This document shows, one piece after another, positions 14,313-56,304 of a stretch of DNA of 64,000 nt. The translations under genes and the position numbers were made by a program. The notes under the pieces are model-generated. The model worked only from the letters and a program-made list of their open reading frames with translations, was not told the origin of the DNA and made no database searches. Origin of the DNA: Phaseolus vulgaris (taxonomy: Eukaryota > Streptophyta > Magnoliopsida > Fabales > Fabaceae); NCBI RefSeq assembly GCF_000499845.2, contig NC_023749.2, forward strand, positions 35,183,693 to 35,247,692, in the 5' to 3' direction. Positions within the stretch are counted from its first letter, which is position 1, and each line of letters opens with the position of its first letter.

Positions 14313-15459
14313 TGTTAGAATATATGGCCTTAAACGAGAGGGGGGGTGAATTGTTTAAGAAAGATTTTCCTAAACTTTTAAGCTTAGAATGAAAATACTT
14401 CAAGAAAACCTTGATTAAGAATTCAGTTTTTCAAAACATAAAGCAAAAGCACAATACTGGAAAAACAATCGGTTGTTTTACCGAAACAATCGGTTGTTTA
14501 TACCAGTTATTAATTAACAAAACTGAATTTAAAGAGATAGGGATAGAGAAATCGTACACAGTTGTTTATACTGGTTCACTCCAAACCTAGAGCCACATCC
14601 AGTCTTCTCAGAACCCTGAGGAAATCCACTAAGCAATCACACCTTGATCACTTACACAACAACCAATCAAGAAACACACTCTCCTTGGTCAACACACCAA
14701 CACTAAGATTGCTGATCTTGATCCCCTCAAGAACACACAGCCAATCTCAGCAAAACACAGAAATGAATACTTGTTCAACAGAGTACAAGGATTACACTTG
14801 TTACAGAAGATAATCTGAAATCAATACAAGCAGAATCCTATTCCATACACTTTGATCAATCACAAACTTTTAGCAATCTCAGTTCTTTGAAAAACTCAAA
14901 ACTCTTAAGAAAAACATGTCAAAGATTCTTAATTCTCAAATCTGTTTTTCTGAATATATTCAAAGATGTAGTTTGTTATCAAATCTTAACAAACTCTTAG
15001 ATTGCATTAAAAGATTGGTCAAAGCATTTAATGACTGGAAGCAGTTAAATCATTTAAAGCTCAGTCAAACAGAAAACAGTTTTTCTGTTATGGTCCCAAA
15101 ACAAACAATCGGTTGTTTCCTTGAATCAATCGGTTGTTTTGGTATTTAACAGTTCAACCATTTTAAAAACAGTTTTCAATATTTTTCTCAAAACCCCTAA
15201 GTACAAACAATCGGTTGTTTCAACAAAACAATCGGTTGTTTCAACAAAACAATCGGTTGTTTTAACTTAGTTTGAAAACATTTTACTTTCACAAAGATTG
15301 AGAATGCTAATGCTTTAGATTTAATCAAAGGGTGGATTACAACATATAAACTACCCAGAACTAAGCTAAACCAGCATAGCAACATCAAGCACAACCAAGG
15401 CTTCAACATCCTTCAAAGGGTTTGGATTCTTCAAAACTTGAACACCACTTGGTTCAACA
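14313..15459 (-). mobile_element. Solo LTR of the copia family with 21-bp dyads
   Basis: In minus orientation: its end (...TTCTAACA) is at 14313 and its start (TGTTGAACCAAGTGG) at 15459. Perfect target duplication ATATG at 14308-14312 and 15460-15464. It matches the LTRs of the elements at 17882-22372 and 43765-50131. No internal sequence, so this is a product of LTR-LTR recombination. It carries seven dyads (starts 14463, 14484; 15104, 15125; 15205, 15226, 15247). Small ORFs inside it are not genes. Confidence 0.92.
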
Positions 15460-15583
15460 ATATGTTGCTATTTCCAGAGTAAAATCCAAGAAAGGGTTGA
15501 AAATATTGATTTTGGATGACAATGGAAATACCGGTAATTCAACTACTAATGTGGTTTTCAGAGAAATATTTGAAAATGTTTGA
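15460..15583 (+). pseudogene. Helitron helicase, C-terminal end
   Basis: Directly after the ATATG duplication the helicase frame resumes (VAISRVKSKKGLKILI) and ends at a TGA at 15581-15583 after TTNVVFREIFENV, the standard C terminus of plant Helitron helicases. This fixes the 3' end of the RepHel gene. The transposon end (hairpin plus CTRR) was not found. Confidence 0.85.
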
Positions 15584-17035
15584 ACATATTGTTACAGCCA
15601 TATATATCAGGTATCAAAATTCTTTAATCCAAAACTATTTATATTTCTCATAACTTTGTTCTAATATATTAACTGGAAACCAAGAATTTTCATACGTCTT
15701 CTTTTTTGTAATAATATGTTTCTTCTTATTTTTCATAGTAAACCGATCAACATGACTATAATGGATTACCAAGAAAGGTATTCATCTATAACTTCTTAAT
15801 AAATTTCATAATTTAAATTGTCTATAATTTTAGTTTGAGAATCTTTTTGTTTTGGATGGTTTTAATACAGGTATTTCATTGTAGTTAGTAACAAAGAAGG
15901 GGATATTCAGTACAAAAAATAGGAAGCTATTATACTTTATACAGATTCTATATTATAATATTTGTCACATATGTTGTTACTTTATACATCTATGTTACTT
16001 TATACAGCTATTATAATGCTTCCTAAATAAATTGATCAGACTTCCAATATGTTTGTTTTTTGTTATGTCTATTTCATTGCATAGGAAGATTTTGTAAGTA
16101 TTAACTTCAACTATATATTTCTTTAAACTACTGAGACAAAAGCTATGACAGGTACTCAATCATTCCTCATAATTTTAAATAGTTTCATGATTTTATTAAT
16201 TATCCATGGTTATATTGAGATTTCTCTTTTATTTTTTACTTTTTGCAATAATGCACTTAACATGTTGTGCGAATTGAGATGTGTTGACATTAAATACAAT
16301 ATTGATCAACACCCACATTTTAGCACCTAAAGAAAAGTATCTATGTAGTCCATTTTGTATTTTCTTTAGTATGTTCTGTTCTTTTACTGGGTATTTCTTT
16401 TATTATCAAACTTTAAATTTAACAATACATCTGACTTCTTTTGTTTTGGAAATTATTTTACATTTTCCATGAAATTGATGATAAATTGTTGTATGGATTG
16501 AGCGTTAAATAGAGTTGGTCAAAAGTAGTAAAGTTGTTGCATTATTCTGTAAATAATTCAAGACATGTTGCATTATGTGACAATTACTATGTCAAAAGTA
16601 TTTATTTAATAATATGAAAACAGCATATAGAGTTTTCCAAAATTATGCATACATGTACGAGTTTATAATTTAAGTTTTGGCTTGCTGTTTTTGGAATAAT
16701 GTGTTTACCATTTTCTATGTAATTAACATGTATAAGGCAGCTACATGAATATATCATTTATAAAATTACTTTCTTCATTAGTTCGTCATGGACATTGTAT
16801 CTAAAAGATTCTCAATGCTTTATCTTTTGAGGATATCAAATGAATTAAACATACATATATGAAAATAACATATCGGAGCTCCTTTGGTTACCAAAAATGT
16901 CTAACAATAAGGTATATTTAGTTCATGTTTTTTATTATTTTTGTATTTTATAGATCTCATATAAGTATTTCATTATTTTGATAACATTGCATGTCTTTCA
17001 AAAAAATTGATATTGAGAGTTTTCAAAGTAAAACA
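15584..17035. other. AT-rich stretch without recognisable gene
   Basis: Between the Helitron gene end and the next LTR. It should contain the Helitron 3' terminus, but I saw no convincing GC-rich hairpin with CTRR. The last ~25 bases (TTTTCAAAGTAAAAC) resemble the start of the tandem monomer that continues at 22638, so the array edge may lie here. Confidence 0.4.
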
Positions 17036-17881
17036 TGTTGATCAAAAGTGATCAAGGGCTTTGAAGAATCCAAATCCAAGTGTTTGATGCAAGGCTGAAG
17101 TTGTTGCGGTGTTTAGGATAGGATTTGGGTAGTTTAAAAGTGTAATCCACTCTTTATTGAATCTAAAGCTAATGTGTTTTTTAAAAACCTTTATGAAATT
17201 AAGTTTTTTTCAAACTAAGTGAAAAACAACTTGTTATTTTGTCGAAACAACCGATTGTTTTACTCTTAGGTGTTTTTCAAAAGGTTGAAAACTGTTTTGG
17301 TTGGTTGACTTGCTGTCAAACAAAAACAATCGATTGTTCCATGGTTTCTTTGAAAATCCTAACAGAATTTTGTTTTGGTGGTTGAATGTGCTTTAAATGA
17401 TTTCAACTGAATACGCTCCTCTATTAAATGCTTTGACCAATCTTTCAAAAGTATACATGGTTTGTTTATGTTTTAAAACAAAAAAAGAGAAACGAATTTT
17501 TGTTTTTCAGTTGTGATAAACATAGCTTTCAAGTTTTGAACATTCACATCAAGCTTTGGGTTTTCTCAAGAAATAGTGGAATAGTATTGCATCTGTATTG
17601 ATTTCAGATTGTTCTGTAAATAAGTGTAATTCGTTCTGAATCTTCTGTATTTTCTGGTATTTTTGCCAAGGAGTGGTGTGTGCTCTTGAGGTGCTCAAGA
17701 TCAACATTCTTAGTGTGTGTTGTCCCAAAATGAGTGTGTTTCTTGAAGGGTTCAAGGTAACTACTTTGGTGGTTTGTGTGTAATCTGTTTTGATTGCTTA
17801 GTGGATTGCCTAGTGGCTTATGGGGACTGGATGTAGCTCTTGGTTTAAGAGTGAACCAGTATAAACTGTTTGTGTATCTCT

Positions 17882-18991
17882 TGTTGAACAAGATGCTTTG
17901 ATGTCTCTAAATCCAAGAGAAAAGCTAGAAGACCTTGTTGCTGGGTGTGTGTGTGTTGTTTGGTGTGTGTGTGTTGTTTAGTTGTTTGAAACTTGTTAAT
18001 TCACTTCTTAAGATGATCCAAGTTCATTTGAATCTTAAACCTTTTGAAAATATGTGTTTTCAAAAAAGCTGTCAAACTTTCAACAGGTTGTTTTTCGAAA
18101 TAAAAGGTTGTTTTACATTAGTAGTTTTTGAAAAAGGTTGAAAGTTGTTTGACTTGGTTGACTTGGTTGTCAAACCAAATCAATCGATTGTTTCGACAAA
18201 AAAATTGATTGTTTTCCTGAAAACCTTAACAAAATTCTGTTAAGCGGTTTTAATATTTTTAAATGATCCTAACTAACTTGGTTCCTTTATTAAATGTTTT
18301 TGACCACTTGGTGGGTCTATATAAAGGTGGTTTTACGCTCCTAATCTTGGAGTGAGAGAAAGAGTTTATCAAAACAGTTTTTCCAAGATTTGAAAGAGCT
18401 TTGGATCATTCTTAAGTGTGTGGAATAGGATTGGGTTGTAATTCTGATCTTTAAGTTTTGTAATACCCAGGTGTATTCTATTCCCTTCTTCCTTGATTAT
18501 TGTATTTCTATAGTTGTGTTGCCAAAGAGTGTTGTGTGTTCTTAAGGTGTTCAAGATCAACATTCTTGGTGTGGTTTGCGAAAGGTAGTGTGTTTCTTGA
18601 GGGGTTCAAGGTCACTACTTTGGTGTGTGATGTGTGTAATATGGTTTTGATTGCATAGTGGATTACCCAGTGGTTTCTGGGGACTGGATGTAGCTCTTAG
18701 TGTAAGAGTGAACCAGTATAAATCTGTTTGTATGATTCTCTCTTTCCTTGATCTCACATATATCTGTTTCAAGTTGTTTTTATTAACTGCTGATAAAAAA
18801 AAACCAATTGTTTCGACAAAACAACCGATTGTTTTTCTGATATCATCTTAAAATAGTTTTGGGTTTTTGTTTCCTTGATTATTTTCTCTGTAATTTAGCA
18901 TTGATTTTCATTATACCTTCAAAATTCGCTAAAATCCCTGTTAAACAATTCACCCCTTCCCCGCTCTCGTTTAAGGCCATATATTCTAACA
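17882..18991 (+). repeat. 5' LTR of the defective copia element
   Basis: Starts TGTTGAACAAGATGC and ends CTAACA (1110 bp). It has a TATATAAAG box at 18318-18326 and a C-rich tract followed by CTCGTTTAAGGCCATAT close to the 3' end, shared by all LTRs of this family. Dyads start at about 18178, 18198, 18797 and 18818. Confidence 0.88.
18318..18326 (+). promoter_or_regulatory. TATA box of the copia LTR
   Basis: TATATAAAG sits between the U3 dyads and the conserved LTR body, the expected place for the retroelement promoter. Confidence 0.5.
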
Positions 18992-19012
18992 ATTGGCATC
19001 AAGAGCTTGGTT
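18992..19012 (+). other. Primer-binding site of the copia element
   Basis: TTGGCATCAAGAGC directly after the LTR is a variant of TGGTATCAGAGC, complementary to initiator-Met tRNA, the usual primer of plant copia elements. Also present at 44845 and 55107. Confidence 0.7.
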
Positions 19013-19051
19013 CTTTAAAGATATTCAAGTTTTGATCCTAAATCTTTTTTA

Positions 19052-20464
19052 ATGGCTGAAAAGTTTTCTTTTGGGGAAGGTGCCTGTTTAAGCAAACCAC
19101 CTTTGTTCTGTGGTATGAAATATGAATTGTGGTGCATAAGAATGAAATTCTTTGTTGAATCTATAGATAGAAAAATCTGGAATGTTATTACAAATAACTA
19201 TCTCATGCCTATATTTGAAAATGTTTCTTCTGAAAAAGAACATCTTGATTGTGTAGTTATGAACATCATTGTATCTGCACTTGATTCTAATGAATTGCTC
19301 AAGGTTTCATAATGTAGTTCTGCCAAAGAAATGTGGAATACCCTTGAAGAGTATCACAAGAATCCAAGGAGTGCCTTGATGGACAAAGAAGAATCTTCTG
19401 CTGAATCTTTCTCTTCAAAATCCAAAAAGAAGGTTTGTCTTATGACAAAACAAGAATTTGGATCAAGTCAAGCTGCTGGGAACAAAAACTGTCAATACTC
19501 AAGTGATGAGAGTGAAGAGGAAACATTTAGGTTGTTGTTTAAGAAATTCAGCAAGTTCCTAAAGAAGAGAAATAGCATAAGTGACTCATTCAACAGGTAT
19601 GATAACAAGAAACCTACTCAGTTTAACACTAACAAATATACATGCTTTGGATGTGGTGAACAAGGTCATATTAAAACTGAATGTCCCAACAAAAAGAGGA
19701 AAAACTTCAAGACGCATGAGAAGAAAGGAAAATCAAGAAGAGCTTATAATGATGACTCATCAAGCTCCTCTTCAAGTGATGAAGAAGAAGCAAATTTATG
19801 TCTAATGACAAGACAAGAAAGTGACACAAGCAGTGTAAGTTCAAGCACTTCTATTAATTTTGAGAATTATAGTCAACTTCTTGAGGCCTTCAATGAGACT
19901 CATGAAGAAGCTAATAGGTTGTCCCTTTTGAACAAACGGTTGAAAGGTTTAAACAACTCGTTGGAAAATAGAGTCAAGATCTTGGAAGAAGAGTTGAACA
20001 ATTCAAAAACTGATTTTGAAAATTTGGAAATGATTTACCAAAACTCTTCTTGTAAGTGTGTTGATTCAAGTTCTTGTAAAAATTGTGAATCTCTTCAAAA
20101 GAAGGTTCACTATCTTTTAAAAACCATGGACAAGTTTTCCAAAGGCCAATCTAATCTTGAAACCGTTCTTGCTTCTCAAAAATGTGTTTTTGGCAAGGCT
20201 GGGTTGGGGTTTAATCCAAACAACAAGAACAAATCTATTTCAAAACCCTTTTCAAGTTTCTTTGAAAAACAACTTGTTGTTTTATCGAAACAACCGGTTG
20301 AAATTTGGCATTACTGCATGAAAATGGGCCACACTATTAGATTATGTAGAGTAAAAAGGTATTTTGTTCCTAAAGGTATTTTGAAATGGGTTCCTAAGGT
20401 TTCTAAGGTTCTTACTAACATCATTGGACCCAAATTCATAAGGGGACCAAATCTTGCTTCTTAA
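19052..20464 (+). pseudogene. copia gag with internal deletion
   Basis: Starts MAEKFSFGEGA and has the DUF4219/UBN2-type gag entry (KPPLFCGMKYELWCIRMKFF). A TAA lies at 19310-19312; the frame then continues to 20464. Compared with the copy at 44905 about 130 residues of the gag core after KEMWNTLE are missing. C-terminal part: Ser/Lys-rich linker, a CCHC knuckle (CFGCGEQGHIKTEC, 19652-19690), a coiled coil, and a second knuckle whose first Cys has become Trp (WHYCMKMGHTIRLC). A dyad pair (20267, 20288) lies inside the coding frame just before that knuckle, read as KQLVV and KQPVE. Confidence 0.85.
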
Positions 20465-21500
20465 TATTTTGTTGTAGGTATCCTTGGCAGCCAAGAATTA
20501 CTTTTGGACTTGAAGAGTGACTGCTAAAGGGAAAACCATCAAAACCAAAGTCTGTCTCTGTGCCTGTACTTTCAATTGTATATGTCTTTCAAGGTTCTTT
20601 GAATGTCAAGAGACATCCTTGGCACATGCATAGTGTTGATCAAAAGAGAAACTTCAAAGAGAGTATGTGTGTTTTCATTTCTCAATTTATGTAAATGTGC
20701 CTTGTGACCATATGAACATCTCAAAGTCTTCTTTTTTAGTGAATCTATTGGGGTTCTCTGTGCAAAGGTACGAACAAATTGCATACTGCATTTTCATCAA
20801 TTTAAAAGATAATTTTTGGTTATGAAAAATGTTCTTTTTGCTGTCACAATAAAACAACCGATTGTTTCTGCGAAACAACCGATTGTTTTTCCTCTGGCAC
20901 CTTTGTATAATGCTGTCAAGTTTGCTTATGCATGATTAAACCTATTTCTTTTTTTCAAATCTTGCTTTTGGATAAATATACATTGAGTGTGCCTCAGAGT
21001 ATAATAATAAAAGATTATATCCTCTTGTTTTCTTGAAAGCTCTATGACATGTTCTATAAATGTTAAAATTGTTTGTACTACTAAACTGCTGTGTTATCAT
21101 TCTGATTTCTGCTTTATACAACTTCTCATTTTCTATTTGTGAGAGCAAATAGGGGGAGTTGTTTGTGCTTGATTTGGTTGTATAAGATAGCTTTAAAATT
21201 GATGCATTATGTTGTTGCTTCTCTACACTTGAAAGCACTTGATTACTTCAATTTTTCTGGTTTTTCTGCTAATGTTGTATATGCAGAAAACTGGTTTGTG
21301 TGTGTCTTGTTATCTTGCTGCTATACTTGCTTTGTATATGCATCAAATCTGTGTTACAGGAACTTTCAAGTACAAGTGTTATGATGAAGAATGATTAAAG
21401 TAATGCTTATGGTTCAAGAGCATATACACCTTACTCATATTTTTGACAAGTCAAAATTCATGACCTATGTAAACAAACTTCAAGAATAAAGAGTCTGATC
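20465..21500 (+). other. Non-coding spacer of the copia element with PPT-like site
   Basis: No ORF of substance. A dyad pair starts at 20852 and 20873. GCAAATAGGGGGAGTTG at 21145-21161 matches the polypurine tract seen before the 3' LTR of the element at 43765 and a second such site there at about 48773. The order in this copy (gag, spacer, PPT-like site, then pol remnant) is odd and suggests rearrangement. Confidence 0.55.
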
Positions 21501-21516
21501 TGGTGTTGTTGATGGC

Positions 21517-21740
21517 TTATAACTGTGGAGGAGTCTGTCCATGTGGTGTTTGATGAAATCATTCATAGTGATCAAAGTTCTACAAAGGTTTATGTAAAAG
21601 AAGATGAGCATAACATCACCTTGGAGAAGCTGGAATCCTGTCCAGAAAAACAACCGATTGATTATGTGAAACAAGCTGGATGAATCTGGAGTAATTACAA
21701 GGAACAAGGCAAGGCTTGTGGCTAAAGGTTATAATCAAGA
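21517..21740 (+). pseudogene. copia pol remnant (linker and start of RT)
   Basis: One frame reads EESVHVVFDE, the integrase-RT linker of copia polyproteins, up to a TGA near 21681. A neighbouring frame then gives NKARLVAKGYNQEE, the start of the copia RT, cut at the junction with the LTR at 21738. A dyad pair (21648, 21669) lies inside the linker coding sequence, read as KQPID and KQAG. Confidence 0.75.
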
Positions 21741-22372
21741 AGAGTTTATCAAAATAGTTTTTCCAAGATTTGAAAGAGCTTTGGATCATTCTTAAGTGTG
21801 TGGAATAGGTTGGGTTGTAATTCTAATCTTTAAGCTTTGTAATACCCAGGTGTATTCTATTCTTTTCTTCCTTGATTACTGCATTTTTGTAGTTGTGTTG
21901 CCAAGGAGTGTTGTGTCTTCTTGAGGTGTTCAAGATCAACATTCTTGGTGTGGTTTGCCAAAGGTAGTGTGTTTCTTGAGGGGTTTAAGGTCACTACTTT
22001 GGTGTGTGATGTGTATAATCTGGTTTTGATTGCATAGTGGATTACCCAGTGGTTTCTGGGGACTGGATGTAGCTCTTGGTGTAAGAGTGAACTAGTATAA
22101 ATTTGTTTGTGTGATTCTCTATTTCCTTGATCTCACATATATCTGTTTTAAGTTGTTTTTATTAACTGCTGGTAAAAACAACCGATTGTTTCGACAAAAC
22201 AACCAATTGTTTTTCTGATATCATCTTAAAACAGTTTTGGGTTTTTGTTTCCTTAATTCTTTTATCTGTAATTCAGCATTGATTTTCATTATACCTTCAA
22301 AGTTTGCGACCCTCTTAAACAATTCACCCCCCCCCCCTCCCCCCCTCTCGTTTAAGGCCATATATTCTAACA
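21738..22372 (+). repeat. 3' LTR of the defective copia element, 5'-truncated
   Basis: Matches 18363-18991 of the 5' LTR, beginning GAGTTTATCAAAA and ending TTCTAACA. The C-rich tract near its end is long (about 22328-22346). Dyads at 22176 and 22197. Confidence 0.87.
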
Positions 22373-22637
22373 TCTCTCTCTTCCCTTAAACTACTTTAAA
22401 TTCAGTTGTTAGTGCTTTACTGGTATAAACAACCGATTTTTTTGCATAAACAACCGATTATTTTGCAGAAACAACCGATTGTTTTTCTGGTACTTTGTTG
22501 TTTTGTGTTTAATTTCTTGGCTAACTGAAATTCTGATCTGGATTCACTCAAAGGATTTTGTTCAAGCTGAAAAAGTTTTCAAAAATCCCTCTTAAACAAT
22601 TCAACCCCCCTCTCGTTTAAGGTCATATATTCTAACA

Positions 22638-25600
22638 AAACGTATACCTAACCCTAAAGACGTTTTCAAACTCTTGCATTTTAAACTCATTTATTACCCA
22701 ATACTCTTTTTTATAATGTTCTATACTTCTCATTCGTAATAAAAAATAACAATTTATCTAGTATAACTGTCATTTTCAAAATATTCCATTCATCATTTCA
22801 ATACCAAGAAATTAAAAAAAAAATCATTCTTTTATGGTCATTAAAACTATTAATTATTACTTATTTGTTATTATTTATAAATCATACACCTTTCCACAAT
22901 CAAACCATTAGTTTTTAATTTCTTCTATATTGTGTTTTTAATATAATAATAGTACATATTTTACATTTACATGATTCTTAATTCATTTAATTTTAACTTA
23001 TAAATTATTGTAAAACTAATATTTTAATTTAATATATTACATTTTAGAAAAATATATTTATTTTAATAAATATTATTTATTTATTATTTTAAATTATAAT
23101 TATATAATTTAAATATGAAATATTTAAAATATTCACAATATATTTTTTATGTAGACATTGTGCTCTGTTGCATTGGATTTATTGGATTTATGTGTTGCCT
23201 CATAAAAGTTTCATATTTCATAGTAAAATGCATACCTAACCCCTAAAACCTTTTCCAAACTACTGCATTCTAAACTAATTGTTTACCCAATGTTTTTTTC
23301 TATGGTTTAACGGTCATTTATTTAGGAACTTATTTAGTATAACGGTCATCTACAAAAAAAAAATCATTCATAATATAAATACAAAGAAAATATGATCATT
23401 ATTTCTATGGTGCATTTTTTAGACATACACGTTGTGCTCTGCTATATTGGATTTATGTGTTGCCTCATAAAACTTTATCATTTAATAGTAAAACGTATAC
23501 CGTACCACTAAAGACTTTTTCAAATTCTTGCATTTTAAACTCTTTGTACAATGTTCTTTTCTATGGTTGTCTATACTTCTCATTCATAATCGAAAATAAC
23601 AATTTATTTATTATAACTATAATTTCGAAAAATTTACATTTATCATTTCAATACAAATAAATTAAGCATTTTATCCTTCTTTTATAATTATAAAAACTAT
23701 TAATTATTACTTATTATATATACATCGTACACCTTTCCACAATCAAACCATTAGTCTTCAATTTATTCTATATTGTGTTTCTAATATAATAATTGTATGT
23801 ATTTTACATTTATATGATTATTAATTCATTTAATTTTAACTCATAAATTATTTTAAAACTAATATTATAATTTAATATATTACATTATAGAAAAATATAT
23901 TTATTTTAATAAATATTATTTATTTATTATTTTAAATTATAATTATATCATTTAAATATGAAATATTTAAAATATTCACAATGATGCCTTTTTTCGGCAG
24001 ACACTGTTGTTCTCTACTGGATGAGATTTATGTGTTGGCTCATAAAAGTTTCTCATTTCAAAGTAAAACGTATACCTAACCCCTAAAAAGTTTTCCAAAC
24101 TAGTGCATTGTTTAACCAATGTTATTTTCTATGGTTTAACTGTCATTTATTTAGCAATTTATTTAGTATAACTGTCATTTCCAAAAAAAATTCATTCATA
24201 ATTTCAATAAAAAGAAATTATGAACATCATTTCTATGGTGCATTTTTTAGATATACGTTGTGTTCTGCAGGATTAGATTTATGTGTTGCCTCATAAAAAG
24301 TTTATCATTTCCCAGTAAAACGTATACCGTACTCCTAAAGACTTTTTCAAATTCTTGCATTTTAAACTCTTTGCCCAAATTTCTTTTTTGTGGTTGTCTA
24401 TACTTTTCATTCATAATCAAAAATAACAATTTATTTAGAATAACTATCATTTCCAAAAATTTACATTTATCATTTCAATACAAAGAAATTAAGCATTTTT
24501 TCCTTCTTTTATAGTTATAAAAGCTATTACTTATTACTTATTACTAATTATTTATAAATCTTCCACCTTTCCACTATCAAACCATTAGTCTTTAATTTCT
24601 TCTATATTGTGTTTTTAATATAATAATTGTATATATTTTACATTTATATGATTCTTAATTCATTTAATTTTAACTTATAAATTATTGTAAAACTAATATT
24701 ATAATTTAATATATTATATTTTAGAAAAATATATTTATTTTAATAAATATTATTTATTTATTATTTTAAATTATTATTATATCATTTAAATATGAAATAT
24801 TTAAAATATTCATAATGGTGCATTTTTTAGGCAGACACTGTGCTCTGTTGGATTGGATTTATATGTTGCCTCCTAAAAGTTTCTCTTTTCATAGTAAAAC
24901 GTATACCTAACCCCTAAAAACTTTTTCAAACTACTGCATTTTAAACTAATTTTTTACCATATATTCTTTTGTATGGTTTAACTGTCATTTATTTAGAAAT
25001 TATGAACATCATTTCTATGGGTCATTTTCTATACATACGTTGTGCTCTGCTAGATTATATTTATGTGTTGTCTCATAAAAGTTTATCATTTCACAGTAAA
25101 ACGTATACAGTACCTCTAAAGAATTTTTCAAACTCTTGCATTTTAAACTCTATGCCCAATGTTCCTTTCTGTGATTGTCTATACTTCTCATTCATAATCG
25201 AAAATAACAATTTATTTAGTATAACTATCATTTCCAAAAATTTACATTTATCATTTCAAAACAAAGAAATTAAGCATTTTTTCCTTCTTTTATAATTATA
25301 AAAACTATTAATTATTACTTATTATTTATAAATAGTACACATTTCCACAATCAAACCATTAGTCTTCAATTTCTTCTATATTGTGGTTTTAATATGATAA
25401 TTGTATATATTTTACATTTATATGATTTTTAATTTATTTAATTTTAACTTATAAATTATTGTAAAACTAATATTATAATTTAATATATTACATTATAAAA
25501 AAATATATTTATTTTAATAAATATTATTTATTTATTATTTTCAATTATAATTATATCATTTAAATATGAAATATTTAAAATATTCACAATGGTGCCTTTT

Positions 25601-27290
25601 TTCGGCAGACACTGTTCTAAGCTGGATGGGATTTATGTTTTGATTCATAAAAGTTTCTCATTTCAAAGTAAAATGTATACCTAAACTCTAAAAACTTTTT
25701 CAAACTACTGCATTATTTACCCAATGTTCTTTTCTATGGTTTAACTGTCATCTATTTAGCAATTTATTTAGTATAACTGTCTTTTCCAAATAAAATTCAT
25801 TCATAATTTCAATACAAAGAAATTATGAACATCATTTCAATGGTTCATTTCTTAGACATACGTTGTGCTCTGCTACATTGGATTTATGTGTTGCCTCATA
25901 AAAGTTTATCATTTCCCAGTAAAACGTATATCATACCTCTAAAGACTTTTTCAAACTCTTGCATTTTAAACTAATTGTTTAGCCAATGTTCTTTTTTATG
26001 GTTTAACTATCATTTATTTAGCAATTTATTTAGTATAACTGTCATTTTAAAAAAAAAATCATTCATAATTTCAATAAAAAGAAATTATGAACATCATTTC
26101 TACGATACATTTTCAAGACAGATGTTGTGCTTTGCTGCATTAGATTTATGTGTTGCCTCATAAAAGTTTATCATTTCACATTAAAACGTATACCATACCT
26201 CTAAAGACTTTTTCAAACTCTTGCAATTTATACTCTTTACCCAATGTTCTTTTATGTGGTTGTCTATACTTCTCTTTCATAATCAAAAATAACAATTTAT
26301 TTTGGATAACTATCATTTCCAAAAATTTACATTTATCATTTCAATACAAAGAACATAAGCATTTTATTCCTTCTTTTATAATTATAAAAACTATTAATTA
26401 TTACTTATTAGTTATTATTTATAAATCTTCCACCTTTCCACTATCAAACCATTAGTCTTTAATTTCTTCTATATTGTGTTTTTAATATAATAATTGTATA
26501 TATTTTACATTTATATAATTCTTAATTCATTTAATTTTAACTTATAAATTATTGTAAAACTAATATTATAATTTAATATATTACATTATAGAAAAATATA
26601 TTTATTTTAATAAATATTATTTATTTATTATTTTAAATTATAATTATATCATTTAAATATGAAATATTTAAAATATTCACAATGATGCCTTTTTTCGGCA
26701 AACACTGTTGTTCTCTACTAGATGAGATTTATGTGTTGGCTCATAAAAGTTTCTCATTTCAAAGTAAAACGTATACCTAACCCCTAACAACTTTTCCAAA
26801 CTAGTGTTTTGTTTACCCAATGTTCTTTTCTATGGTTTAACTGTCATTTATTTAGCAATTTATTTAGTATAATTGTCATTTCCAAAAAAAATTCATTCAT
26901 AATTTCAATAGAAAGAAATTATTAACATCATTTCTATGGTGCACTTTTTAGATATACGTTGTGTTTTGCTGCATTGATTGATGTGTTGTCTCATAAAAGT
27001 TTATTATTTTACAGTAAAACGTATACCGTACCTCAAAAGACTTTTTCAAACTCTTGATTTTTAAACTCTTTGCCCAATGTTCTTTTCTGTGGTTGCCTAT
27101 AATTCTCCTTCATAATCGAAAATACCAATTTATTTAGTATAACTATCATTTCCAAAAATTTACATTTATCATTTCAATACAAAGAAATTAAGCATTTGTT
27201 CCTTCTTTTATAATTATAAAAAGTATTAATTATTACTTATTACTTATTATTTATAAATAGTAGACTTTTCCACAATTACACCATTAGGTT
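22638..27290 (+). repeat. AT-rich tandem array with ~830-bp higher-order unit
   Basis: About five to six copies of a two-part unit. Using the shared ATAAAAGTTT site as marker, it recurs near 23204, 23464, 24040, 24290, 24870, 25073, 25645, 25895, 26157, 26740 and 26990. Gaps alternate between ~200-260 and ~570-583. The short part (A) carries CATTTCAAAGTAAAACGTATACCTAACC; the long part (B) carries CATTTCACAGTAAAACGTATACCGTACC and a ~300-bp very AT-rich tail. The copy at 25895 is a B-start/A-end hybrid, a sign of unequal exchange. Small ORFs in B copies are discussed under findings. Confidence 0.88.
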
Positions 27291-27389
27291 GTATTTCTAA
27301 AAAGTTTTTGAACTAGAATACCCTCCATTGTCGGTATATTTTGCTCTCGTAAACCACTTGAGTGCTTCATTAATGTTTAAACAAAGAAA

Positions 27390-43764: not shown

Positions 43765-44844
43765 TGTTGAACCAAGTGGTGTTCAAGCTTTGAAGAATCC
43801 AAACTCTTTGAAGAATGATGAAGGCTGGTTGTGCTTGTTGTTGCTGTGTTGTCTTTTAGATAGGATCTGGGGTAGATTTAATATGTAATCAACTCTTGAT
43901 TGAATCCAAAGCATAAACACTCTCAATCCTTTTAAAAGAAAAGTGTTTTTCAAACTAAGTGAAAAACAACCTGTTGTTTTGTCGAAACAACCGATTGTTT
44001 TATACTTAGGTGTTTTTAGAAAAGGTTGAAAACTGTTTTTCAAATGGTTGAGCTGTCAAAACCAAAACAACTGATTGATTCGTGGAAACAACCGATTGTT
44101 TGTTTTGGTACCATAACAGAAAAATGGTTTTAATGCTTTGACCAATCTTTAAATGTAATTAATAGTTTGTTAAGATTTGATAACAAACAAACAACTTTGT
44201 TTTACAAATAGAAAAATAGATTTGGGTTTTTCACAACTTACAGATTTTGAAAGAGTTGAGATTGCTTAGAGATTGAGTTTGATCAAAGAGTGTGAGATAG
44301 GATTTTCTGCTTGTATTGATTTCAAATTTGTTCTGTAACAAGGGTAATCCTTGTATCTTTTGAAAGAAACCTTGTGTGTTTGCTGAGAAATGTTGTGTGT
44401 TCTTGAGGGGATCAAGATCAACATTCTTAGTGTTGGTGTGTTGACCAAGAGAAGTGTGTGTCTTGAGGGGATCAAGGTCACTTCTTTGGTTGTGGTGTAA
44501 ATGATCTAGGATTGATTGCTTAGTGAATTCCTCAGTGGTTTCTGAGAAGACTGGATGTAGCTTTGGGTTTAGAGTGAACCAGTATAAACATCTGTGTGCA
44601 TTCTCTCTATCCTTAATCTCTTTAAATTCAGTTTTTTATATTTGCAAACTGGTATAAACAACCGATTGTTTCTGTGAAACAACCAATTGTTTTTCTGGTG
44701 CTGTTGTTTTTGCTTTGTGTTTTGGCAAACTGGATTCCTTATCATTTGTTTCTCGAAGTAATTTCATTCTTTGCTTAAAAGTTTGCGAAAAACCTCTTTA
44801 AACCAGTCACCCCCCCCTCTAGTTTAAAGCCATCCATTCTAACA
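43765..44844 (+). repeat. 5' LTR of the gag-only copia element
   Basis: 1080 bp from TGTTGAACCAAGTGG to ATTCTAACA. Dyad starts 43964/43985, 44065/44086 (left part) and 44656/44677 (near the 3' end), each pair 21 bp apart. Confidence 0.92.
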
Positions 44845-44904
44845 ATTGGCATCAAGAGCTTGGTTCTTGAAAGTTATTCAAGTTGATCCTAAAACTGTTT
44901 TTTA

Positions 44905-46586
44905 ATGGCTGATAGATTACCTTTTGGGGAAGGTGCTTCAATCAACAGACCACCTCTGTTTTGTGGTTTGAACTACCAATTTTGGAAAGTGAGAATGAAA
45001 ATCTTTGTGGAATCACTTGACAAAGGAATTTGGGATGCAATTGAAAATGGTCCTTTTGTCCCAATTTTGAAAAAGATGGATCTTCCATTGAAAAGCCTTG
45101 GTCTCAATGGACTGATTCTGAAAGCAAAAAGGCCAAGTTTGATTGCATTGCTAAAAACATAATAACCTCTGCTTTGAATTCAGATGAGTTTTTCAGGGTC
45201 TCTCAATGCAAATCAACAAAAGAAATGTGGGACACCTTGGAGGTAACTCATGAAGGTACAAAAAATGAGGTGAAGAGAGCTAGGAAGCATACTCTAATCC
45301 AAGAGTATGACATGTTCAGAATGTTCAAAGGTGAAACAATTGCTGAAGTGCAGAAAAGATTCACGCACATCATCAATCATCTCATGAGCCTTGACAAGAC
45401 CTTTGAAAAGGAAGAGCTAAACATCAAGATTTTGAAATGTCTTGATAGAGCATGGCAACCTAAGGTAACTGCTATATCCGAATCCAAAGATCTAACATCC
45501 TTGAGTATGGCTTCTTTGTTTGGCAAGCTTAGGGAACATGAGTTAGAGATGAATCGACTCAATGTTCAAGAAAGCGAAGACAAGCACGTAAGGAGTATAG
45601 CCTTAAAAGCTTCCAAGCACAAAGGCAAACAAGAATCCAGTGATGAGGAAAACCTTAGCTTGCTATCCAGAAAGTTTAGCAAATTCTTAAAGAGGAACCA
45701 CAACAAGGATAACAACAAAGATAGGTATGGAAACAAGAAATCTAATGATTTTAATTCCAATAACTATACCTGTTTTGGTTGTGGTGAGCAAAGTCACATA
45801 AAGGCAGATTGCCCAAACAAAAGCAAGGAGAAAAAGCCTAGCTACAAGGAAAAGAAGAGCAAGACAAAGAGAGCCTACATAGCTTGGGATGAGAATGAGG
45901 TATCATCATCAAGCTCTTCATCAAGTGAAGAAGAGAAAGCAAACATTTGTTTGATTGCTGAAGATGATGATGAATCTTGCAGCTCAAGTGAAGTAAGTTC
46001 TTGTGCTTCTTTAAATGAACAAAATTATAGTGAATTGCTTGAAACTTTTCAAGAAACTCACGATGAAGCTAATTGATTGGTGCTTAAAAACAACTGAATG
46101 AAAGAACTTAACAGCTGGCTAGAAAAGAGAGTGAAAGAACTTGAAGATGAGATTGAAAAATCTAAAAAGGATTTCAAAAATCTTGAAACACATTTCAAAA
46201 ATTCTTCTTGCAAGTGTGACACTCTCATTTGCGAAAATTGTGAAAACCTTGAGAAAAAAGTGCATTATCTTGTTAATACTGTGGACAAGCTTTCGAAAGG
46301 GAAATCTAACTTTGAGAATGTCTTGGCATCTCAAAGCTGTGTTTTTGGAAAGGCTGGTTTAGGTTTTAATCCACAAAACCAACAAGATAACTTTTCAATT
46401 TTTTTTTTAAGAAAGCCAGTAAAACAACTGATTGTTAAGTCGAAACAACCGGTTGTTACATGCTTTTATTGCATGAAAAAGGGCCATTCGGTTAGATTCT
46501 GCAAAATAAGAAAGTTTTCTGTTCACAGGGGCTTCATGAAATGGATTCCTAAAGGATGTGAGGTTCCAAGTGAGAAAAAGAAATGA
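44905..46586 (+). pseudogene. gag of the non-autonomous copia element
   Basis: MADRLPFGEGASINRPPLFCGLNYQFWKVRM start, UBN2-type core (EMWDTLEVTHEGT, FTHIINHLMSL, ELNIKILKCLDRAWQPKV), Lys/Ser-rich linker, CCHC knuckle CFGCGEQSHIKADC (45778), coiled coil, and a second knuckle CFYCMKKGHSVRFC (46460-46502). Breaks: a frameshift near 45075-45090 and TGA codons at 46074-46076 and 46095-46097. The dyad pair 46422/46443 lies in frame just before the second knuckle, as in the copy at 19052. Confidence 0.88.
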
Positions 46587-47420
46587 TTTGGACCCACATT
46601 TGTGAAGGGGCCAAATCTTGTTGCTTGAACTCATGCTTATGCAGGAATTCTAAAGAAGTGTGAAGGACTGAGTCATCTGATCAAGTTCTTGGAAGAAAAA
46701 GACCAACATTGAAGCTGAATCAATGTTTTGTATCTGTCCAAAGGCCCTCAACAGTTAAATGAGGCTTCTTGATCACAAAGCACATGGCTCATTGAAAGAA
46801 CAACATAAAGGATAAAACCTTCCTTATCACTGTTCTTAATTCCTATTTTTAAGTTCATTTTCATGATTATATATCCTCTTTAAAATACTCAATTTCATCT
46901 GCTTTGAATTCCTTCTACTCATGATTGAAAATTCAAAATCAGTTTTATTGTTGCAGAAAAACAACCGATTGTTTCCTCGAAACAACCGATTGTTTTGAGT
47001 CTGACAGCACTGTGAAGATTTCAATTTAATTCCTTTTTGAATTTCTATCTGTTGCAGATCAAATTAAAGAAAGAATCCTTGGTCAATGAACCTGTGTTGA
47101 AAGCTGATCACGCTCAGAAAGAAGTTACAACAGTCATAAAGGAATATATTCCACAATCTTGAAAATTTAAGAGCTTTTATGACTAGTTAAAGATCACATG
47201 TGAAGACCATGTGATTTTCTGCTTTTTCTGACGTTTTCTGTGCAGGGCATGGTCAAGTATTCTCTCTATGAAAATCTGGTACCCACTCATGTCATTGAAT
47301 GCTTTATGATTCTGTTTTTGCTATAAAATCTGTTGCAGCTGATCTCTTCCACAAGAACAACCAATTGCAACATCTCTTGCAATTCTTGTGTGAGCTTCTC
47401 TCTGTTTCTTCTCTGCCATC
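46587..47420 (+). other. Spacer between gag and extra ORF
   Basis: Non-coding; takes the place where pol should be. A dyad pair starts at 46959 and 46980. The first ~50 bp resemble the spacer after gag at 20465. Confidence 0.5.
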
Positions 47421-48623
47421 ATGGACTCAACTCCTCCCACCTCAAGAAGAGTCAAATCCAGAGCAGTAAGGTCTGGAGGAAGGCTAGAAGGATGGTTTTC
47501 TAGTGATAATGATCTAATTGAGAGGTATAGGTTTAAGACTAGCACCAAAGTGATAAACAACCCCAAGGTTGTTTGCTTTGATTGGCTGAAAAGCTAAAAG
47601 CTGAACAATGTCAGAAGGCTCCTCAAAGATCAATCCCTCAGAAAGTTCTTGGAGATGAAGGGGAATATCTACCCAGATTTGATAAAACTATTCTACACAA
47701 ATCTCAAGTTTGAGGGAAACAACCTTGTTTCTCATGTAAAAGGTGTAGATATGGAGATCACATATGATGTGTGGACTGCAGTAGCTGGTCTAAAGTACTC
47801 TGGCCTCAGAATCAACAAGGGGAACCTTGGAGTAGTGGAGGATTTCAGCAAAGTCCAATACTACAAGAGTTGCTTGAAGAACGAAAATATTCAAGTTAGG
47901 ACTTGTTCGGTTGGCGGCTTAAGGATTGATGAAAGGTTGTTGGCCCTAATTGTGACTTGGATTTTAACTCCAAGGGGGAGCAATCATTCTATTCTTATAG
48001 AGGAGGACCTGATGTACATCTTCTGCATTATGAAGAAGATCAGAATAAATTGGATCCACATCATCAAAGAGCACATGCAAAAGGCAATGAGGTTAAGTGA
48101 CTATCATTATCCATATGTTGTTTTGGTTTCTAAATTTCTACTCTATTTTGAAGTGAACCTAGAAGATGAAACATCTGAGTTGGTCAAGTCAACTCAAGAG
48201 TTGAACAATGGATCTCTTAGTAAAATGGGATTCACCAAAGTAGGTGGCAAATGGATTAGCAAAGATGGTGATCTTGGTGCCTCATCAAGTGCTGCTGCTG
48301 ATCATGAAGAAGTTGAACATGCTGATGATATGGATTTTCAACATGAAGATCAACCTGAAGCAAATCAAGATGCTGGACCAAGTGTTGGTGCTGGAAATCA
48401 AGAAGAAAGAATGCCAACCATGTCTTCTTTTGAGAGATATATGGTCAATAGGCTTGATGGCTTTGCGGAGAACCAAAGGAATCTCCATGATCTATGTGTC
48501 TGCAATTTCCAGAGCATTGATAACAGGTTTAATAGCATGGATGCACACTTCATGACCTTAGATGAACAGATTGAGGCAGTTCAGAACCAGATCTTTGATC
48601 TTCAATACGCTGATGATGAGTAA
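47421..48623 (+). pseudogene. Extra ORF of the copia element (putative plant transposon protein type)
   Basis: Begins MDSTPPTSRRVKSRAVRSGG, has one TAA near 47596, then runs open to 48623 (324 codons from 47649). The middle (KFLEMKGNIYPDLIKLFYTNL, VSHVKGVDMEITYDVWTAVAGL, WIHIIKEHMQKAM) resembles the domain annotated as putative plant transposon protein in many plant retroelement proteins. The C-terminal part is acidic and ends in a heptad-like coiled coil (NRFNSMDAHFMTLDEQIEAVQNQIF). Position before the PPT is where env-like or accessory ORFs sit. Function unknown. A dyad pair starts 8 bp after the stop (48631, 48652). Confidence 0.65.
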
Positions 48624-49025
48624 AAAGGAAAAACAACCGGTTGATGTATCGAAACAACCGATTGTTTTTGGTATTTGTATCAGTTTTTCTGTTTTTAGCT
48701 TCTATTGTTTAAATCTGATGTATTAAGAACAATTATCTTTTTCATCTCTTCTTTTTGTGTATTTGTGAAGACAAATAGGGGGAGATTTATGTTGTGTTTG
48801 GTTTTAATTATCTTTTTCAGCAAAACAGTCTGTATGGGTGAAACCTTATAGGTTTTTGCTCTTTTTTGTTTTGTTTTTTGCTCTGATATTATGCTCTGAA
48901 TTTCTATTTTTGTTTATGTGCTAACCAAATATCAGAAGTTCTATGCTTTGCTTAAAACTCTGTCTTGCAGGAACTGTTTCAGATTCAATCAGATATAACA
49001 CAAGCATAAGGGATTTGTCTTCATC

Positions 49026-49039
49026 AAATAGGGGGAGAT
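49026..49039 (+). other. Polypurine tract of the non-autonomous copia element
   Basis: AAATAGGGGGAGAT abuts the 3' LTR, as expected for plus-strand priming. An almost identical site stands 250 bp upstream (about 48773) and another at 21145 in the related element. Confidence 0.75.
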
Positions 49040-50131
49040 TGTTGAACCAAGTGGTGTTCAAGGCCTTTGAAGGATAATGAAAGCTGGTTGTGCTTGTTGT
49101 TGCTGTGTTGTCTTTTAGATAGGATCTGGGTAGATTTAATATGCAATCCACTCCTGATTGAATCCAAAGCATAAGCACTCTCAATCCTTTTAAAATAAAA
49201 GTGTTTTTCAAACTAAGTGAAAAACAACTTGTTGTTTTGTCGAAACAACCGATTGTTTTATACTTAGGTGTTTTTAGAAAAGGTTGAAAACTGTTTTTCA
49301 AATGGTTGAGCTATCAAAACAAAACAACCGATTGATTCGTGGAAACAACCAATTGTTTGTTTTGGTACCATAACAAAAAAATGGTTTGTGCTTTGACTGA
49401 GCATTAAATGTTTTTCCAACTGTTTACACTCCATTTTTTAATGCTTTGACCAATCTTTAAATGCAATTAATAGTTTGGTAAGATTTGATAACAATCAAAC
49501 AACTTTGTTTTACAAATAGAAAAACAGATTTGGGTTTTTCACAACTTACAGATTTTGAAAGAGTTGAGATTGCTTAGAAATTGAGTTTGATCAAAGAGTG
49601 TGAGATAAGATTTTCTGCTTGTATTGATTTCAGATTTGTTATGTAACAAGTGTAATCCTTGTATCTGTTGAAAGAAACCTTGTGTGCTTGCTGAGAAGTG
49701 TTGTGTGTTTTTGAGGGGATCAAGATCAACATTCTTAGTGTTGTTGTGTTGACCAAGAGAAGTGTGTGTCTTGAGGGGATCAAGGTCACTTCTTTGGTTG
49801 TGGTGTAAGTGATCTAGGTTTGATTGCTTAGTGGAATTCCTCAGTGGTTTCTGAGAAGACTGGATGTAGCTCTGGGTTTAGAGTGAACGAGTATAAACAT
49901 CTGTGTGCATTCTCTTTATCCTTAATCTCTTTAAATTTAGTTTTTTATATTTGCAAGCTGGTATAAACAACCGATTGTTTTTCTGGTGCTGTTGTTTTAG
50001 CTTTGTGTTTTGGAAAACTGGATTCCTTATCATTTGTTTTTCGAAGTAATTTCATTCTTGGCTTAAAAGTTTGCGAAAACCCTATTTAAACCATTCACCT
50101 CCCCTCTAGTTTAAAGTCATCCATTCTAACA
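49040..50131 (+). repeat. 3' LTR of the non-autonomous copia element
   Basis: 1092 bp, from TGTTGAACCAAGTGG to ATTCTAACA. Dyads at 49222/49243, 49322/49343 and 49968. One of the two dyads of the 3'-end pair is lost relative to the 5' LTR. Confidence 0.92.
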
Positions 50132-53647: not shown

Positions 53648-53674
53648 GTAGGGAGTTCAATGAAAGCACCAAAA

Positions 53675-53940
53675 TGTTACGTTGAAAATAGAAGGAAGCA
53701 GAACACAAGGAGAAAAGCTAAGGAAAGAACTAACTAAGATAAGGATAAAACTATAATATTATTCCCTATCCTTTTTCCAACCATGAAGGCCATTATAAGA
53801 GGCAGTTGTACCTCAAGAAAGCATAAAGCATAATAGAAATATATTCTTCCTACACTAAAATGACAACTCATTGCTTCTAGATGTAATCTCTAAATCTGAT
53901 GGGTTTTACTTTGCTTCTAATGGGCCTGGGTTGTCTATCA
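53675..53940 (-). repeat. 5' LTR of the Reina-like element
   Basis: 266 bp copy of 42054-42332. On the minus strand it is followed by TTTTGGTGCTTTCATTGAAC, the putative primer-binding region. Confidence 0.88.
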
Positions 53941-54399: not shown

Positions 54400-55106
54400 C
54401 TATTTTGGCTCTTGCTTTAAATGTTTTTTAACAACTGATTGAAGTTTATATAATTTGTTTTACGCTCCTAGTTGTAAAGGACTTTTAAGATAACACTTTC
54501 AAATCAATTTTTCCAAGATTGCTTCAAGCTCTGGATCTTTTCTAAGAGAGGAGTAAGATTGTGTTGTATCAAGTTTGTTTTGATCTTTGATCATTTCCAT
54601 GTGTATTCCATTCTTTCATCTGATTACTGTATTTATGTAAAGACTGGTGTAGTGCAGATTTACAGGGTGTTTTGAGATTTGTGGTGTTGTTTGCCAAAGG
54701 TGGTGTGTATTCTTGAAGGGTTCAAGATCACAACTTTTGTGTGTTGTATGTAATCAAGGTTTTTGATTGCTTAGTGGAATCTCATAGGTTTCTGAGGACT
54801 GGATGTAGCTATTGGTAAAGAGTGAACCAGTATAAAATCTCTGTGTTGATCTTTCTATCCCTTCTCTCCTTTAAATCTGTTATTGCCTGTTATTGCCTTG
54901 TTTTTAACACTGTTGATAAAAACAATTGATTGTTTTGCAAAAACAACCGTTGATTTTCTGAAATCACAGTAAAAATAATTTTGATTTTGGCTAAACTGAT
55001 TCCTACTTCATTAATTCCTCATTGGCTTTCATCCTACCTTAAACATTTGCGAAAATCTTTCATAAGCAATGCACCTCCCTCTTGTTTAAAGCCTATAATT
55101 CTAACA
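54400..55106 (+). repeat. 5'-truncated LTR of the copia family
   Basis: Matches the second half of the LTRs above (GTTTTACGCTCCTAGTTGT ... GGATGTAGCTATTGGT ... ATTCTAACA), followed by the PBS-like TTGGCATTAAGAGC. The left boundary with the MIRO intron is unclear. Dyads at 54920 and 54941. Confidence 0.75.
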
Positions 55107-55169
55107 ATTGGCATTAAGAGCTAAGTTCTTGAAAGTCATTGAAGTTTTTGATTGTAAAATCTTTTTTCA

Positions 55170-56038
55170 TGGCTGAAAAACTATCCTCTAGGGGTGCTTC
55201 AATTAACAGGCCACCTCTGTTTTATGGTTTGAGTTATCAGTTTTGAAAGGTAAAAATGAATATCTTTGTGGAATCAATTGATAAAGGAATTTGTGATGCC
55301 ATTGAAAATAGACCTTTTATTCCAAAAGCTGAAAAATATTATATTTCTATTGAAAAACCTTGGTCCCAATGGACTGAGTCTGAAAACAAAAATGCTAAGT
55401 TTGATTGTATTGCTAAGAACATGATAACATTTTATCTAAATTCTGATGAGTTTTTCAGGGTATCACAATGTGTTTTAGCAAAAGAAATGTGGGATATTCT
55501 TGAAGTTACTCATGAAGGAACCAATAATGTAAAGAGATCAAGAAAGCATGCTATAATCCAGGAGTATGAGATGTTCAGAATGCAAAAAAGGGAGACCGTT
55601 ATTGATGTTCAAAAAAGATACACTCATACTGTCAACCATCTCATTAGCATAGGAAAGACCTTTGAAAGGGAGGAACTCAATATCAAGATCCTCAAGTGTT
55701 TAGACAGATCTTGGCAGCCCAAAGTCACAGTCATATCTGAATCCAAAGATTTAACAACCTTGACAACAACTTCCTTGTTTGGAAAGCTTAGAGAACATGA
55801 ATTGGAGATGAATAGGATGAATGATCAAGAGCATGAAAACAAGAATGTGAGAAGCATTACTTTGAAGACTGTTGGTCACAAAAACTATCAAAAATCAAGT
55901 GAGGATAGTGATGGATAAACACTTAGCTTGCTGACCAGGAAATTCAGTAAGTTCTTGAAGAAAAACAACAATAAGAACCAATCCTCCAACAGGTATAACA
56001 GTAAGAAACTCAATAATTTTAATACTAACAATTATACC
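55170..56038 (+). pseudogene. copia gag, truncated
   Basis: MAEKLSSRGASINRPPLFYGLSYQF, then a TGA where the other copies have Trp, and the gag core (EMWDILEVTHEGTNNVKRSRKHAIIQEYEMF, ELNIKILKCLDRSWQPKV). A TAA at 55916-55918 follows; the frame then runs to NTNNYTC, where the first zinc knuckle is cut by another LTR start at 56039. Confidence 0.82.
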
Positions 56039-56304
56039 TGTTGAACATTAGCTTTGATGTCTCCAAATCTATGTGGATTGCTTGAAGTCTTTGATGATAG
56101 GTTTCTGTGTGTGTTCTGGGTAGTTTGAATTTGTAATCCACTCAAAGAATTGATCCAAAGTTGTTTGATTTAAATCCAATTGAAAGAGTTGTTTTCAAAG
56201 AGAAGTGGAAAAACAACTAGTTGTTTTATCGTTTCAATTGGTTGTTTTACACTTAGTGTTTATGAAAGGATTTGAAACTAGTTTGACTTTGCTATCGAAC
56301 CAAT
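56039..56304 (+). repeat. 3'-truncated LTR start of the copia family
   Basis: TGTTGAACATTAGCTTTGATG opens an LTR like 17882. It includes a dyad pair at 56211/56232 and stops near CAATTCAATCG at about 56304. Confidence 0.7.

Follow-up and report, generated by a model that had tools for sequence, protein, structure and literature searches.

Paired near-palindromes at an exact 21-bp step in Sirevirus elements of common bean

RESULTS

Sirevirus elements in the window

The stretch of DNA analysed here, which we term the window, comprises 64 000 nucleotides of the common bean genome and contains both an element with two LTRs and a number of related fragments. Element E1 (43765..50131, with all its features on the plus strand) has both LTRs, a gag region and an ORF in the ENV-like position. 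It is bordered by a 5-bp target duplication, AGACA on either side, and is flanked by parts of a minus-strand gypsy element. The 5′ LTR (43765..44844) is followed by ATTGG and a PBS-like sequence CATCAAGAGC, and it is 92.6–93.7% identical to the 3′ LTR (49040..50131) in two main blocks. The gag region (45045..46583) is made up of two open pieces (45045–46073 and 46098–46583) and matches PF14223; its CCHC knuckle-like stretches score under the Pfam cut-off. The ORF lists and Pfam place an ORF with PF20167 (Transposase_32) at 47649..48623, where Sireviruses have the ENV-like gene. No pol-sized ORF was seen in the ORF lists of these Sirevirus copies.

The related copies are more fragmentary. A solo LTR lies on the minus strand at 14313..15459; the others are on the plus strand. 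These are an LTR fragment, F17 (17112..17960, ends approximate), element E3 (17960..22373, start approximate) with LTR parts and a gag piece, an LTR tail fragment (22374..22637), and the degraded element E2 (54600..56600, ends approximate) with an LTR part and gag pieces.

Judged by their sequence, these elements are Sireviruses, because E1 combines a copia Gag with the AGGGGGAG/AT/TG junction, CA/ATTGG and a C-rich LTR end. The terminal polypurine tract (PPT) AGGGGGAG plus AT (49030..49039) abuts the 3′ LTR, so that nucleotides 49030–49041 read PPT, AT and then the TG of the LTR. PPTs are repeated near the 3′ LTR, at 48777 and 49030, with a further one at 47973 inside the PF20167 ORF; E3 has one PPT octamer, at 21151. 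The C-rich integrase signal CACCCCCCCCTCTAG is found at the end of the E1 5′ LTR, and CA/ATTGG is present in E1, E3 and E2. The copia-type Gag domain PF14223 is found in the gag pieces of E1 and E2, bearing out the copia assignment made in the sequence-only reading, and was not found in the E3 pieces scanned with Pfam. All of these are Sirevirus traits, as is a predicted inverted repeat at the PPT/3′ LTR junction, its left arm bordering the PPT and its right arm starting ~25 bp inside the LTR; support for this last is modest, 16 of 500 shuffles being equally good. The Sirevirus PBS is TATCAGAGC; the PBS-like sequence of E1 and E3 reads CATCAAGAGC.

A 16-bp near-palindrome at a 21-bp step

The elements carry a 16-bp near-palindrome that mostly occurs in groups of two or three at an exact 21-bp step. 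Allowing up to three mismatches to AAACAAYCGRTTGTTT there are 47 matches in the window, compared with a mean of 2.9 and a largest value of 10 in 100 shuffles. With up to three mismatches to AAACAAYYRRTTGTTT we find 63 sites, with 22 steps between neighbours measuring exactly 21 bp, whereas 60 Markov simulations gave a mean of 13 sites and not one exact 21-bp step. These shuffle and Markov counts rule out chance repeats in AT-rich DNA. The plus-strand sites were listed with up to four mismatches to AAACAAYYRRTTGTTT.

E1 has 17 units in total, with pairs at six separate places; nine units lie between gag and the 3′-side LTR end, and two in gag. In the 5′ LTR there are pairs at site a (43964..44000), site b (44065..44101) and site c (44656..44692), the last being 74 bp past the start of a conserved GTATAAA. 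This heptamer has a single shared position in all seven aligned LTR copies; neither E1 LTR contains a strict TATA pattern. Further pairs lie in gag (46422..46458), in the linker between gag and the ORF in the ENV-like position (46959..46995), and directly 3′ of the PF20167 ORF (post-ORF pair, 48631..48667). The 3′ LTR repeats the pairs at site a (49222..49258) and site b (49322..49358), and has one unit left at site c (49965..49980), where the two LTRs differ in length by exactly 21 bp.

The other copies have matching sites. The solo LTR has site c at 14463/14484, site b at 15103/15124 and a site a triplet at 15205/15226/15247, while F17 has site a at 17224/17245 and a decayed site b at 17324. 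In E3 there are pairs at 18178/18199, 18798/18819, 20267/20288 (gag), 20852/20873 (linker) and 22176/22197, and a single site at 21648. The LTR tail fragment has a site c triplet (22427/22448/22469), and E2 has pairs at 54920/54941 in its LTR part and 56211/56232 in gag.

Twenty of the 21 steps listed in the sequence-only reading stand. The exception is 21648/21669, since 21669 (AAACAAGCTGGATGAA) is not the dyad. One pair, given as 15104/15125, is genuine but displaced by a nucleotide, and the partners 20288, 54941 and 56232 are sites with three mismatches each. Absent from that list were the pairs 18178/18199 and 18798/18819 and the single sites 17324 and 49965; 18078/18098 is a decayed pair with a 20-bp step.

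That variants often keep the dyad, as had been claimed, is true of the outer 6-bp arms, which are mostly intact, but not of the inner positions 7 and 10, which pair in just 12 of the 45 sites listed by hand. CCGA, the most frequent core (25 of the 45 sites), gives a C-A mismatch at 7/10. The asymmetry follows the orientation of the element, the opposite form TCGG occurring in none of the 45. The TCGA form is present at 17324 and 18178, and the degraded site 56232 has TTGG.

Conservation and CpG content

When copies at matching positions in different elements are compared, the cores are identical at 565 of 640 positions (88%), compared with 52 of 100 (52%) in the spacers and 199 of 400 (50%) in the adjacent flanks. 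These counts omit the E1 3′ LTR copies, one E3 LTR site c copy, the extra units of the triplets, the single site 49965, the decayed 17324 and 18078, 21648 and the single-copy post-ORF site. Had the spacers been as well conserved as the cores, the pairs could have been copies of one duplicated segment; within this window the cores are far more conserved. The spacers, proposed earlier to be free, do vary, yet they are not wholly free because CG is present in 15 of 22 (a count made by eye; this CG lies outside the search motif); all three gag copies have TCG.

CpG dinucleotides are concentrated in the sites; the LTRs have a CpG observed/expected ratio of 0.23–0.26. In E1, 18 of 39 CpGs fall within sites that make up 312 of 6367 bp, and the proportions are 8/10 in the solo LTR and 18/36 in the E3 block, although for the cores this enrichment follows in part from the search motif itself. 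In E2 it is not significant (2/13, p 0.08).

Pairs inside gag, and gain and loss of units

Three pairs, in E1, E3 and E2, are located in frame inside gag, that of E1 encoding KQLIVKS KQPVV. Here each 21-bp unit encodes a heptapeptide, of which homologues have up to four copies (three and four heptads in P0013 and P0032, respectively). Just two of 24 proline codons in four gag pieces are CCG, and both are within sites; TCG occurs four further times elsewhere in these pieces. The heptads might be linked to dynein light chain 8 binding.

Whole 21-bp units have been gained or lost between the E1 5′ and 3′ LTRs (site c), and between the solo LTR and E1 (site a). Neither this block-wise change nor the in-frame gag pairs nor the Sirevirus identity of the elements figured in the sequence-only reading. 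The triplets at 15205 and 22427 have equal or near-equal spacers. In general the second core is not followed by another copy of the spacer (26/80 matches, five of them from one triplet), and before the first core its sequence gives 19/80 matches.

DISCUSSION

From their sequence, the repeats appear to be the palindromic repeated motif (RM) that belongs to a group of common bean Sireviruses, an RM of the Tnd-1 type. The sequence-only reading knew of no description of such a motif, but the class is in print: the RM boxes of Sireviruses are repeated palindromes found in LTRs and upstream of the ENV-like gene (Bousios et al. 2010, PMC2829016). The kind of motif is thus already known, from these palindromes and from the nearly matching ACAATCGATTGT of tobacco Tnd-1, reported in Table 3 of that paper as eight copies, 100% identical, in the 3′ LTR only of an element with no ENV gene. 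Over the inner 12 bp, the Tnd-1 motif and the most frequent common bean form disagree only at position 7, where Tnd-1 has T and common bean has C; the TCGA core that results is also the one at 17324 and 18178. RM boxes number at least eight copies per element, and E1 has 17 units. Dyad symmetry, another RM trait, is kept here mostly in the outer arms. Published RM boxes have a CGG-CCG signature that the common bean motif lacks, its commonest core being CCGA; Tnd-1, in the founding RM set, lacks it too. The published motifs are mostly in the upper half of the LTR and upstream of ENV (PMC2829016). Sites a, b and the linker agree with this, while site c (low in the LTR), the gag pair and the post-ORF pair fall outside the pattern. 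RM boxes also go with a CpG island that is soon followed by a TATA box; the common bean sites concentrate CpGs, but in LTRs with a ratio of 0.23–0.26, and GTATAAA is the TATA-like sequence there.

The 21-bp pairing and the gag pair look like new details; we found no description of them in the literature as far as it could be searched. In the available part of PMC2829016 we found no statement on RM spacing, and no binder is named there. Among the matches listed, that paper, through ACAATCGATTGT, was the only Sirevirus paper containing the motif strings. The 37-bp pair pattern had no match among the viral contigs and genome contigs searched, the gag query revealed no related viral locus among viral contigs, and an Rfam search gave no match.

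What might the pairs do? We think it probable that each functional unit is a pair or triplet of 16-bp near-palindromes acting as putative CpG-bearing binding sites for a nuclear protein. The near-palindromes stand precisely two turns of the helix from one another, and most cores, as well as the majority of spacers, contain CpG; the candidate reader, a sequence-specific nuclear protein and most likely a host transcription factor, would bind a pair of adjacent sites on the same face of the DNA. A paired DNA site of this kind had been suggested before, and with an exact step and cores conserved far above spacers it seems a fair reading. The pairs at six places of E1, the core asymmetry that follows the element, the CpGs in the sites, the CCG proline codons confined to the gag sites, the gain and loss of whole units and the partial match to published RM places also speak for it. 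The conserved TATA-like box follows sites a and b at ~500–600 bp; site c is in the likely leader, and further sites flank the gene in the ENV-like position, before and after. From these positions they may therefore drive both LTR transcription and an internal promoter. The copy number at a site would shift by whole 21-bp units via slippage or recombination, which would help to keep the step exact, while selection on binding would preserve the cores. Some observations point the other way: CpG enrichment is not significant in E2, several sites lie outside the published RM pattern, a conserved heptapeptide partly accounts for the gag pairs, gain and loss of units could by themselves fix the step at 21 bp, and whole pairs fold well as RNA, which is superfluous for a pure DNA site.

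The last of these touches on an explanation that we regard as unlikely, though worth weighing, in which a whole pair forms one long hairpin, the near-palindromes pairing mutually around the 5-nt spacer as loop and the flanks extending the stem. In transcripts this could be a small-RNA template or an RNA signal, as has been proposed for maize. There, according to the available text of PMC5311732 and PMC10760457, the Sirevirus palindromes CACCGGAC...GTCCGGTG (Bousios 2016, as cited there) are small-RNA hotspots; like those of common bean they form clusters in the LTR cis-region, with another sequence. Six of ten folded stretches gave z ≤ –3.3 (lowest –4.64), but the other four lie between –0.9 and –2.2, and two near-palindromes fold together by construction. 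When left and right flanks were shuffled among the six site classes, with gapped pairing, 22-nt flanks paired better with their own partners, equalled by 2 of 720 permutations with 21 rows and 1 of 720 with 17 rows. Yet the effect depends on flank length, with values below 0.05 at four of nine lengths (14, 20, 22 and 26 nt) and 38–70 of 720 at the other five, and single loci rarely beat random positions (2/21 rows <0.05). The solo site a row uses an inner pair of the triplet, and its flank score is too low for that reason. Ungapped flank pairing is above chance (<0.05) in 4 of 22 rows, three site a copies and the post-ORF site. A stem that generally continues without gaps into the flanks is thus rejected, and the gapped test gives a modest, length-dependent effect. 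The mostly mismatched inner positions, and arms without compensatory changes, also argue against the long hairpin.

A history without selection, in which the 21-bp unit arose once and was spread by slippage so that the step is simply the unit length, we consider quite improbable. The triplets, the exact 21-bp difference at site c of E1 and the heptads of the gag homologues are what it would produce. It does not fit the far better preservation of cores than spacers, a spacer that goes unrepeated beyond the second core, or CpGs that are retained in the sites and rare around them.

It is very unlikely that the pairs are read by a protein that the element itself encodes, either Gag or the PF20167 product, for packaging or self-activation. 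The sites in gag and on either side of the PF20167 ORF, and the asymmetric core in sense orientation, would suit such a binder. However, the PF20167 product has no sequence relative in the PDB at E ≤ 1, Pfam gives no second domain in it at E ≤ 1, and the structural model of it, with a mean pLDDT of 41, is not of usable quality. A single hairpin per dyad with a 4-nt loop, the RNA structure originally proposed, is not supported and was rejected, because no compensatory arm change occurs among the 45 sites and the inner position is mostly mismatched.

Returning to the paired protein-binding site, the fixed 21-bp pair offers a precise, testable site that a single factor might read. A bolder version, decidedly improbable in our view, has one 21-bp unit serving as both a regulatory DNA site and a Gag heptapeptide that expand and shrink in step, a helically phased two-site module in promoter, leader, linker and gag that would be read throughout by one protein, perhaps encoded by the element. 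Such possible dual use, if true, would make gag an unusual example of coding sequence in which a cis-site is maintained.

Results

The dyad, a 16-bp near-palindrome, is real and well observed. A scan of the window finds 47 sites at ≤3 mismatches where about 3 are expected, and neighbouring sites are separated by a step of exactly 21 bp 22 times; when the window was simulated 60 times with a Markov model, no such step occurred. Of the 21-bp steps listed in the sequence-only reading 20 of 21 are borne out; the partner placed at 21669 is not a dyad, the pair put at 15104 exists and starts at 15103, and two pairs had been overlooked. The step is constant wherever both cores of a pair are kept; the spacing between LTR sites a and b is not, measuring 79, 80 or 81 bp from the second core of a to the first of b. 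The exception to 21 bp is a decayed pair at 18078/18098, with a 20-bp step.

The sites are carried by Sirevirus elements. Element E1 (43765–50131) has both LTRs and is bordered on each side by a copy of AGACA; around it lie pieces of a gypsy element on the minus strand. Two main blocks of its LTRs are 92.6 and 93.7% identical. The terminal junction, AGGGGGAG/AT/TG, is of the Sirevirus type, additional copies of the octamer AGGGGGAG are present, CA/ATTGG and the C-rich LTR end are both Sirevirus features, and an inverted repeat is predicted around the PPT. The PBS, CATCAAGAGC, differs from the published Sirevirus PBS, TATCAGAGC. The Gag is copia-type, in agreement with the original assignment of the family to copia. 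An ORF with PF20167 occupies the place of the Sirevirus ENV-like gene, and its place may be called ENV-like by position. No pol-sized ORF was seen in the ORF lists of E1, the stretch 45045–48623 comprising gag and the PF20167 ORF. In Phaseolus coccineus P0088 the Gag continues into sequence similar, on inspection by eye, to the end of the PF20167 product; taken with the coding content of E1, this suggests that copies without pol may form a lasting non-autonomous type. The same sites are found in a second Sirevirus element, E3 (about 17960 to 22373), a solo LTR (14313–15459, minus strand), two LTR fragments (one at about 17112–17960, the other at 22374–22637) and the degraded element E2 (about 54600–56600).

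Elsewhere the window contains AT-rich repeated units about 83–90% alike directly 3′ of an LTR fragment (22637–27300), a glycosyltransferase ORF (29792–31213), a ∼51 bp repeat, tandem and inverted, with internal dyads (59159–59409), and a gypsy-type element with Gag, RT, RNase H and integrase domains (3323–8049) that is GC-rich (54% over 4001–8000) in an otherwise AT-rich window.

Pairs stand at six kinds of place in E1. Three are in the LTR (sites a, b and c) and one is in gag; the PF20167 ORF has one on either side, in the linker that precedes it and immediately behind it. Site c lies downstream of a GTATAAA found at one shared place in 7/7 aligned LTR copies, and is thus probably within the transcript. 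Site c begins inside a second GTATAAA, present at 44652, 49961, 14497 (minus strand) and 22423; in both E1 LTRs this second copy is 70 bp downstream of the conserved one.

Comparing the same site between copies in different elements, ungapped, identity is 565/640 for cores, 52/100 for spacers and 199/400 for the ten bases on each side; the comparisons are not independent, as copies recur among them, and the flank value is a lower bound because some flanks are mis-registered. The spacer had been proposed to be free. It is less conserved than the cores, yet not wholly free, as CG occurs in 15/22 spacers. Kept pairs have no spacer indels, which is weak evidence since only one or so is expected, a rough estimate from the 0.024 to 0.049 gap openings per aligned base between LTRs of different elements.

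CpG is concentrated in the sites, which hold 18 of the 39 CpGs of E1 (312 of 6367 bp), 8/10 in the solo LTR and 18/36 in the E3 block; in E2, where enrichment is not significant, they hold 2/13. Enrichment in the cores is partly circular, because the commonest motif form itself contains CG; that in the spacers is free of this circularity.

Reverse transcription normally gives an element two identical LTRs when it inserts. At site c the 3′ LTR of E1 is shorter than the 5′ LTR by exactly one 21-bp unit, and site a has three units in the solo LTR against two in E1. Slippage or recombination thus also works in units of this step.

The three gag pairs share one frame, with translations KQLIVKSKQPVV, KQLVVLSKQPVE and KQLVVLSFQLVV. 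Gag homologues number 231, of which 120 are listed, including Phaseolus vulgaris P0034 and P0089. A second zinc knuckle is recognised by pattern in 64 of the 120, and 44 of these 64 have a KQ-like unit at a 7-residue step under a permissive pattern (three units in P0013, four in P0032). Four gag pieces together have 24 proline codons, of which 2 are CCG, both inside sites; TCG ends 3/3 gag spacers, with 4 further TCG among 133 serine codons. This codon placement suggests, without proving, that the gag sites are constrained at the DNA level as well as in the peptide.

Discussion

Could the pairs act as RNA? Folding of the whole pair as a long hairpin is a live rival to a paired site in DNA. Folding is strong in 6/10 stretches (z ≤ −3.3) and weaker in the other four (z between −0.9 and −2.2). 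At 22 nt, flanks that belong together pair better than permuted ones, with 2/720 and 1/720 permutations as good in two runs, but at eight other lengths 12 to 70 of 720 did as well. Site a (43952–44010) lies between inverted CTAAGT/ACTTAG and site b (44049–44117) between inverted CAAAAC/GTTTTG, which could lengthen a stem. The proposal of one hairpin per dyad is not supported, since none of 45 sites shows a compensatory change in its arms. The sequence-only reading suggested that the dyad may resemble MYB sites.

The dyad belongs to a known class. It had been thought to lack an earlier description, but the repeated palindromic motifs (RMs) of Sireviruses are in print (PMC2829016), where they are present in 13/21 elements, that of the tobacco element Tnd-1 being ACAATCGATTGT. 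The accessible text of that paper suggests roles in regulation and as an internal ENV promoter, gives no common binder and has no statement found on RM spacing. Our literature search found no description of RM spacing, although a 2016 maize paper may discuss it. Within this class the fixed two-turn pairing, the use inside gag and the block turnover look new.
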